This document shows positions 5,050 through 30,235 of a stretch of DNA of 35,651 bases, in pieces. A program made the translations under genes and the position numbers. The notes below the pieces were generated by a model. It was given only the letters and a program-made list of their open reading frames with translations. It did no database searches and was not told the origin of the DNA. Each line of letters begins with the position of its first letter. The first letter of the stretch is position 1. Source of the DNA: Zetaproteobacteria bacterium (GTDB lineage: Bacteria > Pseudomonadota > Zetaproteobacteria > Mariprofundales > Mariprofundaceae); assembly GCA_021545585.1 (NCBI GenBank), contig JAJRTF010000097.1:1-35651 (forward strand). Direction: 5' to 3'.

Positions 5050-6519
5050 ATGAATGTTGAAATGTTACAGGTTGCAGAAGCAGTTGCACGGGAGAAATCG
5101 GTTGACCGTGAACTGGTCGTGGATGCCATGGAACAAGCGATGAAAACGGCGGCCCGGCGTACCTATCCGGGCAAGAATGTTGAAGCGGAGATCGACCGTG
5201 AAACGGGCGAACTTCGTCTGTTTCATGTGCGCACCGTGGTTGAGGAAGTCGAAGAGGAAGAGAACGACCTGACGCTGGAACAGGGCCGCGAGCTTGATCC
5301 GAAGGCTGAGATCGGAAGCGAATTCCGCGAACCTTTGCCTCCGATCGAGATGGGCCGTATTGCTGCCCAGACTGCCAAGCAGGTGATTAACCAGAAGATC
5401 CGCGAAGCTGAACGCGAGCGTGTGATTGCCGAATACGAGCCGCGCGTGGGTGAATTGATTACCGGTATCGTCAAGCGTGTTGAGCGTGGCAATGTTTATG
5501 TTGACCTTGGCCGTGGTGAAGCGGTGATGTATCGCGAGGATTTGCTGCCACGGGAAACATTCCGTCAGGGAGATCGTGTACGCGCCTATCTGCGCGAAGT
5601 GCGCAATCAGCCCAAGGGACCGCTGGTATTTGTCTCGCGTTCCGATGCCGGCATGGTGTTGCGCCTGTTTGAGCAGGAAGTGCCGGAGATCGAAGACGGT
5701 ATTGTGGCCATCCAGGCTATTGCCCGTGATCCGGGAGCGCGCAGTAAAATTGCAGTCATTTCAACTGACCCTGCCGTTGATCCGGTGGGTGCCTGCGTAG
5801 GCATGCGGGGAGCTCGTGTACAGGCGGTTGTCAACGAACTGCACGGTGAAAAGGTTGATCTGATTGAATGGACCGATGATCCGGCGGCCTTTGTCGTCAA
5901 TGCACTGGCACCGGCGGAAATCGAACGCGTGCTGGTGGACGAATCCCGCAATACGATTGAAGTAGCGGTTAATGAGGAAAACCTTGCCATTGCCATTGGC
6001 CGGCGCGGCCAGAATGTTCGTCTTGCTTCTGAACTTAGCGGCTGGAACATTGAGCTGATGAGCAGCGGTGAAGAGCAGGAACGCCGTCAGGATGAAATCA
6101 AGAATGCGACGGGCATTTTCAAGGAAGCCCTCGATGTTGATGAAGATTTTGCAGCTGTACTTGTCGGCGAAGGGTTTATCAATCTCGAAGACCTGGCTTA
6201 TTGCGCTATTGAAGATATCGCAGGCATTGAAGGCTTTGACGAAGATCTGGCTCAGGAGTTGCAGAAGCGAGCCCGCAATGTCCTGCTTGATCAGGCATTG
6301 CAGCAGGGTGAACAGAAAAGCGAAGGCAAGGTATCCTTGCTGGACCTCAAGGGCATGACCCGCGAGATCGCAGAACAACTGGCTGCACGCAATATGGTGA
6401 CCGTTGAAGCGCTGGCAGATGCGGCAGGTGATGAGATCGAGGATATTGAAGGCCTTGATCGGGAGCAGGCGGATGCGCTGATTATTGCTGCCCGGGAAGC
6501 CAGCGGCTGGTTTGACTGA
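5050..6519 (+). CDS. nusA: Transcription termination/antitermination factor NusA
   Basis: S1/KH architecture with [28 protein letters not shown] and [18 protein letters not shown]-terminal repeats. Confidence 0.97.
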
Positions 6520-29299: not shown

Positions 29300-30064
29300 T
29301 TAGCGACTGAATACCCAGGTGCGCCCCTCGGACAGCTCGGCATTGAAGCTATAACCATCGGCATCGAAGCCTTTGATGCCTTCCGAATCCTGCAGGCGTT
29401 GTTCGATGATGTAACGACTCATCATGCCGCGCGCTTTTTTGGCCGAAAAACTGATGATCTTGTAAGTGTCGCCCCGGAGTTCCCTGAACTGTGGCGTGAT
29501 GATCTCGGCATTCAATCCGGATGTATTCACCGCTTTGAAATACTCATTGGAAGCGAGATTGATCAGGGTTCTGTCGCCCTGTTCGGCAAGCGCATGGTTC
29601 AAAGCATCGGTAATGATATCGCCCCAGAAGGCATATAAATCGCGGCCGCGCGGTGTGGTAAGTCGTGTTCCCATCTCCAGTCGATAGGCCTGCATCAGAT
29701 CCAGGGGACGCAGCAGCCCGTATAGGCCGGACAGAATACGCAGATGCTGCTGGGCAAACTCGATATCATCGGGGCCCAGGCTTGCGACATCCATGCCCTG
29801 ATACACATCACCCTGGAAGGCGAAGATGGCCGCTCTGGCATTTTCCGGCGTAAATGGCGTATGCCACTGCTGATAGCGCGCCATATTCAGATCGGCCAGT
29901 TTCATGCTCAGCTTCATCAGATCGGCAATCTCGAAACTGTCCATGTCGCGCAGGATATCAATCAGCTGACGTGACTCATCCAGCATCCGGGGCTGTGTGA
30001 AGGCCTCCATGGGTGCGGGTCGTTCGACATCGAGTTTTTTGGCAGGGGAAATAATCAGCAACAT
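29300..30064 (-). CDS. yaaA: YaaA/DUF328 family peroxide stress protein
   Basis: MLLIISPAKKLDVERPAP...FAFQGDVYQGMDVASL...LSGLYGLLRPLDLMQAYRLEMGTRL. ATG at 30064 with CAGGAGT SD. Confidence 0.93.
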   Translation of the reverse strand: MLLIISPAKKLDVERPAPMEAFTQPRMLDESRQLIDILRDMDSFEIADLMKLSMKLADLNMARYQQWHTPFTPENARAAIFAFQGDVYQGMDVASLGPDDIEFAQQHLRILSGLYGLLRPLDLMQAYRLEMGTRLTTPRGRDLYAFWGDIITDALNHALAEQGDRTLINLASNEYFKAVNTSGLNAEIITPQFRELRGDTYKIISFSAKKARGMMSRYIIEQRLQDSEGIKGFDADGYSFNAELSEGRTWVFSR

Positions 30065-30068
30065 GGCA

Positions 30069-30235
30069 ACTCCTGATGGCCTCGTAAAAAGCCCATCCAT
30101 GGCCTTTTTACTCAAGGAAAGCGAAAAGTGTCATTTTTACTTTCCTTACAAATTCAATAACTTGCATGATAAGCCATTGATTTGCACGCCCGTCCATGGG
30201 CGTAGTGATGACTTTTTACAAAGTCATCACTCCTG
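30069..30235. repeat. MITE-like structured intergenic element with imperfect TIRs and 7-bp flanking direct repeats
   Basis: ACTCCTG at 30069-30075 and 30229-30235; ends ATGGCCTCGTAAAAAG and (reverse complement) ATGACTTTGTAAAAAG; four internal or terminal hairpins. Confidence 0.55.

Follow-up and report, generated by a model that had tools for sequence, protein, structure and literature searches.

The window analyzed here, 35,651 nucleotides of zetaproteobacterial DNA, is contig 85 of a draft genome (G000) of 1.75 Mb in 119 contigs that is ~87% complete. A mobile element sits in it between a gene on the minus strand and a gene on the plus strand, which we take from their sequences to be yaaA-like and ribD-like, respectively. 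The features of the locus are as follows.

29300-30064, minus strand: yaaA-like gene (MLLIISPAKKLD...), an open reading frame listed with an upstream TTG start; its leader carries the element
30069-30074, no strand: left copy of the target-site duplication, ACTCCT, the same as 30229-30234, in line with ANNNNT duplications across the family
30075-30228, plus strand: mobile element of 154 bp, GATGG...GTCATC, with boundaries set by the duplications, an empty site and the family alignment
30075-30091, plus strand: left terminal inverted repeat, GATGGCCTCGTAAAAAG, matching the ends of IS1182-like elements
30084-30111, no strand: hairpin 1, GTAAAAAGCCCATCCATGGCCTTTTTAC, from the fold; double-sided changes in 4 of 11 pairs across 56 copies
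30091-30102, plus strand: copy 1 of a direct sequence repeat, GCCCATCCATGG
30114-30147, no strand: hairpin 2, AAGGAAAG...CTTTCCTT, from the fold; double-sided changes in 8 of 11 pairs across 56 copies
30149-30184, no strand: hairpin 3, CAAAT..ATTTG with an inner CTTGC-type stem, from the fold; double-sided changes in 8 of 12 pairs (helices 3 and 4)
30186-30203, no strand: hairpin 4, ACGCCC...GGGCGT, from the fold; double-sided changes in 3 of 6 pairs
30188-30199, plus strand: copy 2 of the direct sequence repeat, GCCCGTCCATGG
30204-30231, no strand: hairpin 5, a palindrome with 12-bp arms that includes the right end; double-sided changes in 8 of 10 pairs
30212-30228, minus strand: right terminal inverted repeat, read on that strand as GATGACTTTGTAAAAAG, matching the ends of IS1182-like elements
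30229-30234, no strand: right copy of the duplication, ACTCCT, identical to the left copy and backed by the empty site and the family-wide duplications

All of the inverted repeats named in a first-pass annotation of the window are present where it had placed them, and they fold well beyond chance: z-scores for the region were -5.7 on the plus strand and -6.1 on the minus strand, and none of 200 shuffles was equally stable. That annotation rightly described the interior as packed with hairpins but overlooked the one at 30149-30184. Its count of 13 matches in 16 terminal positions is correct, but the repeat that the family shares is GATGNNYTYGTAAAAAG; the terminal inverted repeats of the element span 18 nt with an 83% match. 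The 35.6-kb window contains exactly two occurrences of the end motif GAY-N6-GYAAAAAG, one at each end of the element, against 0.045 expected from mononucleotide shuffling. As had been proposed, coding does not explain the sequence, since no open reading frame accounts for the 154 bp, and the interior is conserved through base pairing. A search of the element against Rfam gave no family above the gathering score and only two chance-level matches. Scanning for promoters and terminators yielded no terminator and one weak promoter-like site, which lies outside the element.

Copies, target duplications and an empty site

A single copy is visible in the window, as first noted, but not in the genome, which holds a second, 59-bp copy, and many more occur in relatives. 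Dispersed matches at an E value of ≤1e-4 were found in 30 of 78 genomes of the Zetaproteobacteria, with up to 89% identity, so the sequence is not unique. Scanning a genome collection for the right end returned 87 stretches, which occur in Zetaproteobacteria, many Desulfobacterota-type metagenome-assembled genomes (MAGs), a Nitrospirae MAG and others. The same ends enclose two main interiors, that of the window and a distinct one of 153 to 157 bp in Desulfobacterota-type genomes. A deltaproteobacterial MAG of 5.3 Mb (G003) contains 886 end matches, or ~440 elements if the ends pair. Our searches of part of the literature, among them text searches on the end sequence and on MITEs (miniature inverted-repeat transposable elements) of Mariprofundus, returned no description of this family, which is seemingly undescribed so far.

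Copies in G003 include those at L018, L045, L059, L075 and L092, the last with a run of three elements (5666-6161). Four copies lie within 2.3 kb at L122 879-3139 (G011 contig 8), and their hairpins include compensated ones such as TGATGGTTTC/GAAACCATCA. Several copies carry other palindromic modules nested within hairpin 2 (L178 3339-3569, L191 from 2038-2094 onward, L063 6094-6309). Solo 24-bp palindromes of the form TGATGACTTTTTACGA..TCATCA, which lack a left end and show what look like direct repeats, were seen at L074 1704-1728, L077 2848-2872 and L081 2936-2960; they could be mobile units of minimal size or else the outcome of deletions. Exact-end searches of IMG/VR returned two contigs for one pattern and none for two others. 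Those two contigs hold Desulfobacterota-type relatives (L196 7492-7616, L197 10508-10632) and represent a possible route between hosts; the Desulfobacterota-type element had no plasmid match.

Among 113 distinct insertions, 55 are flanked by exact duplications directly outside GATG...CATC, 6 bp long in 45 cases and 7 bp in 10. Duplications of 5 bp or more numbered 56, as opposed to 1.8 on average and 7 at most in 2,000 random re-pairings of the flanks. The duplicated hexamer reads ANNNNT, with A at position 1 in 43 of 45 cases and T at position 6 in 40 of 45, and it is often preceded by C and followed by G, making the target weakly palindromic. In copies with deviant outer bases, such as ATATCA (L141) and CTCTCT (L170), those bases are identical on both sides. 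Thus, the outer A and T are part of the duplication, and the element proper is GATG...CATC. These copies also fix the boundary in the window: the duplication ACTCCTG of the first-pass annotation is real, but its length is 6 bp (ACTCCT), because the G starts the GATG end, and duplications of 7 bp exist in a minority of family copies. The same duplication, ACTCCT, flanks a copy in another genus (L144 1501-1656, G051 contig 38).

In a congeneric genome (G001, contig 84), yaaA and ribD are neighbors with no element between them and a single TCTCCT. Its junction, ...CAGCAGCATGGCA-TCTCCT-TGAGCGCAACG..., corresponds to ...CAGCAACATGGCA-ACTCCT-[element]-ACTCCT-GCGCGAACC... in the window and reads as the unoccupied site, with one hexamer left, as expected. 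The comparison is anchored at the yaaA end and at a BLAST boundary at query position 785 (window position 30074), while the intergenic part past the hexamer has diverged and aligns loosely, so that a global alignment is poor there.

The yaaA-like start codon is the ATG at 30064-30062 on the minus strand, on which the hexamer reads AGGAGT, four bases before this ATG by the spacing in the sequence. For this reason ACTCCT is probably the Shine-Dalgarno sequence of yaaA. The insertion would then have struck the AGGAGT of yaaA, the duplication would have left one copy beside the start codon, and about 160 bp of hairpins would have been placed in the yaaA leader, where they may affect that gene.

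The second copy in the genome (contig 107, about 5517-5575; L002 1502-1559) equals the window element minus the stretch between the direct repeats GCCC(A/G)TCCATGG, and deletion between two such repeats (30091-30102 and 30188-30199) would yield the 59-bp form. It adjoins a dapA-like gene and has ATAGTG repeats on either side. G075 contains at least eight further 59-bp copies. The short form would be either itself mobile or the product of repeated deletion between direct repeats. No gene for the partner transposase described below was detected in the ~87% complete G000, and the sole other copy there is the 59-bp form. The window copy therefore looks like an immobile relic, one that would be unable to move now.

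IS1182-like elements with the same ends

The ISNCY group, known for duplications of 6 to 7 bp, was our first guess for the mover and was rejected: its only full match (G004, L198) lacks matching ends. A weak match of that search in G069 was the final portion of a DDE transposase with an end of the MITE type directly after it, and this fragment led to the real partner. Used as a query, it found full transposase genes in G024 and G022, and the G024 protein in turn found further genes in G103 and G095. Three elements have the ends on both sides and one transposase open reading frame (L207, 1,899 bp; L208, 1,984 bp; L210, 1,899 bp). These ~1.9-kb elements with ends GAYNNNNNNGYAAAAAG, which bear out the suggestion that a transposase with matching terminal repeats be sought, come from two Zetaproteobacteria and one other MAG. 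One-ended remnants are present in G069 and G095 (L211 and L209), and in G103 the insertion sequence (IS) directly adjoins a MITE copy. A relative on a Microvirga plasmid, with 36.6% identity, has perfect inverted ends (18/18; GACGGGGCGGTAAAAAGT), which came from a search made independently of the end motif. When ten IS ends are aligned with seven MITE ends, nine of the first 17 columns are invariant. Only the ends are held in common, and the MITE interior does not derive from the IS by deletion.

The transposase has the Pfam domains DDE_Tnp_1_6 and DDE_Tnp_1. Residues D152, D354 and E479 (numbered in the first sequence) are invariant in five proteins, and D, D, E are kept in alignment with two annotated IS1182 transposases. 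The NCBIfam IS1182 model was the best family match (E values of 3e-49 and 1.9e-47), but its scores of 168.2 and 162.3 bits lie below the curated cutoff of 270. We therefore call the partner IS1182-like rather than a member of the family. Searches with the transposase found no relative in IMG/VR and no match among PDB sequences.

Members of the IS1182 family such as IS1272 resemble the partner IS in having a single DDE transposase gene and inverted ends (PMC5678879). IS1272 replaces palindromes without duplication (PMC5678879), whereas the MITE family of the window leaves 6-bp duplications. Some family members are said to target palindromes (PMC5678879). IS1182-like elements on a Microvirga plasmid (L251 1386-3289) and a Streptomyces plasmid (L254 609-2427) are inserted at the centers of palindromes, which agrees with that targeting (PMC5678879). 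An annotated Streptomyces IS1182 element (L253) has AGCGAG on both sides. None of the four end-complete IS relatives (L207, L208, L210 and L251) has matching 6-bp duplications, although L207, L208 and L210 resemble the MITE in having T as the last base of the left flank and A as the first base of the right flank. For the G024 IS, AAGTAT was considered as the left duplication but rejected, since the true left end lies further out.

The first-pass annotation had suggested a nonautonomous mobile element, and the dispersed copies, target duplications, empty site and transposase element with matching ends support a MITE. Very probably it is mobilized through the ends GAYNNNNNNGYAAAAAG by an IS1182-like DDE transposase. 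The transposase would bind the ~17-bp ends and free or copy the element, which would be joined to a weakly palindromic target, C-ANNNNT-G, cut with a stagger of 6 (sometimes 7) bp, and repair of the gaps would generate the target duplication. That this class moved the window copy in trans is the most likely reading of the sequences. Counting against it are the missing IS duplications, the scores below the cutoff, the lack of a shared interior and the frequent lack of overlap among genomes: a transposase match was found in 3 of the 78 class genomes as opposed to 30 for the MITE, the IS carriers G022 and G024 had no MITE match, and G003, the genome richest in copies, had no transposase match. 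The same missing duplications and separate genomes would suit a MITE moved by a different transposase that escaped detection, its end motif shared with the IS1182-like elements through deeper common ancestry. This is unlikely in light of the nine invariant end columns, the IS beside a MITE in G103 and the relic IS in the MITE-rich G069, and repeated elements can also be lost during assembly of draft genomes.

Compensatory changes in the hairpins

An alignment of 56 copies with a mean pairwise identity of 79% contains six conserved helices in five hairpins, and 96.0% of its cells (50 pairs in 56 copies) are paired. Changes on both sides were found in 31 of the 50 pairs, compared with a mean of 8.5 in shuffles, and in 108 cells, compared with 23.2; none of 500 shuffles reached either value. 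One C-G pair of hairpin 4, for example, is swapped to G-C in 14 of the copies. When partners were shifted by one to three columns, pairing fell from 96% to 36 to 51%, a contrast that is overstated because the structure is the consensus fold of the same alignment with added pairs, which does not affect the double changes.

Compensation this strong is what would be expected if the hairpins were a functional structured RNA (a leader, a small RNA or a terminator) that benefits the host or the element and is also spread by transposition, a proposal compatible with the MITE rather than exclusive of it. An RNA made from one strand should favor G-U, yet no clear strand preference is seen: G-U cells numbered 64 and A-C cells 50, or 30 and 48 without two pairs near loops. 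The orientation relative to flanking genes in tandem is even (21 versus 21). Since G-U hardly exceeds A-C and orientation is even, an RNA-level cause is not favored. The results of the Rfam and terminator searches also speak against it, and we consider a functional RNA rather improbable.

The compensatory changes would be better explained by selection acting on the DNA or by a mutational process in which palindromes are mended. It is possible, if doubtful, that the hairpin array itself functions in the transposon as DNA, so that the interior is selected and not only the ends. The palindromes would form cruciforms or single-stranded hairpins, recognized by the palindrome-preferring IS1182-like transposase or by the replication machinery of the host. 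Such a role would explain the compensation without strand preference, the near-constant length of ~155 bp and an interior that does not derive from the IS. Template switching that mends imperfect palindromes is the purely mutational alternative.

Relation to other repeats

The short, palindromic, intergenic character of the element, and the solo 24-bp hairpins, recall palindromes of the REP/BIME type spread by a TnpA-REP (RAYT) tyrosine transposase, which the first-pass annotation had mentioned. RAYT insertion is not known to create target duplications, whereas the duplications here are clear 6-bp ones, and the inverted ends are shared with a DDE element. This evidence for a MITE suffices, REP-type spread is not needed, and we regard it as highly improbable. 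An ordinary intergenic region whose inverted repeats arose by chance, an explanation favored by nothing more than the low copy number in G000, is refuted by the folding z-scores, the family, the duplications and the empty site.

For Methanosarcina acetivorans, a table of PMC3852290 lists two MITEs, 160 and 169 bp long, as partners of ISMac2 (IS1182 family). By these descriptions, rather than by sequence, they are like the window family in being multicopy, with inverted ends and an IS1182-type partner, but the host is an archaeon, and the entries 26/4 and 25/0, which we read as inverted- and direct-repeat sizes, give duplications of 4 or 0 bp, not 6 (PMC3852290). Chunjie, from the sulfur- and metal-reducing bacterium Geobacter uraniireducens, is likewise short, mostly intergenic and variable in size, with inverted ends and direct repeats; according to a review it measures 178 to 235 bp, and the likeness is one of description, not of ends or sequence (PMC10969869). 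QMITE2 of Coxiella burnetii is also short, and its transcript would fold stably, but it has direct repeats of 7 to 9 bp, inverted ends of 23 to 29 bp and another host (PMC10969869).

A hairpin-packed repeat that is widespread in iron oxidizers and sulfate reducers is now tied to a specific class of transposase. The window copy would exemplify a target duplication that preserves the ribosome-binding site struck by the insertion. With a MITE whose interior is so strongly compensatory, the question of why bacterial MITEs are often rich in hairpins becomes directly testable.
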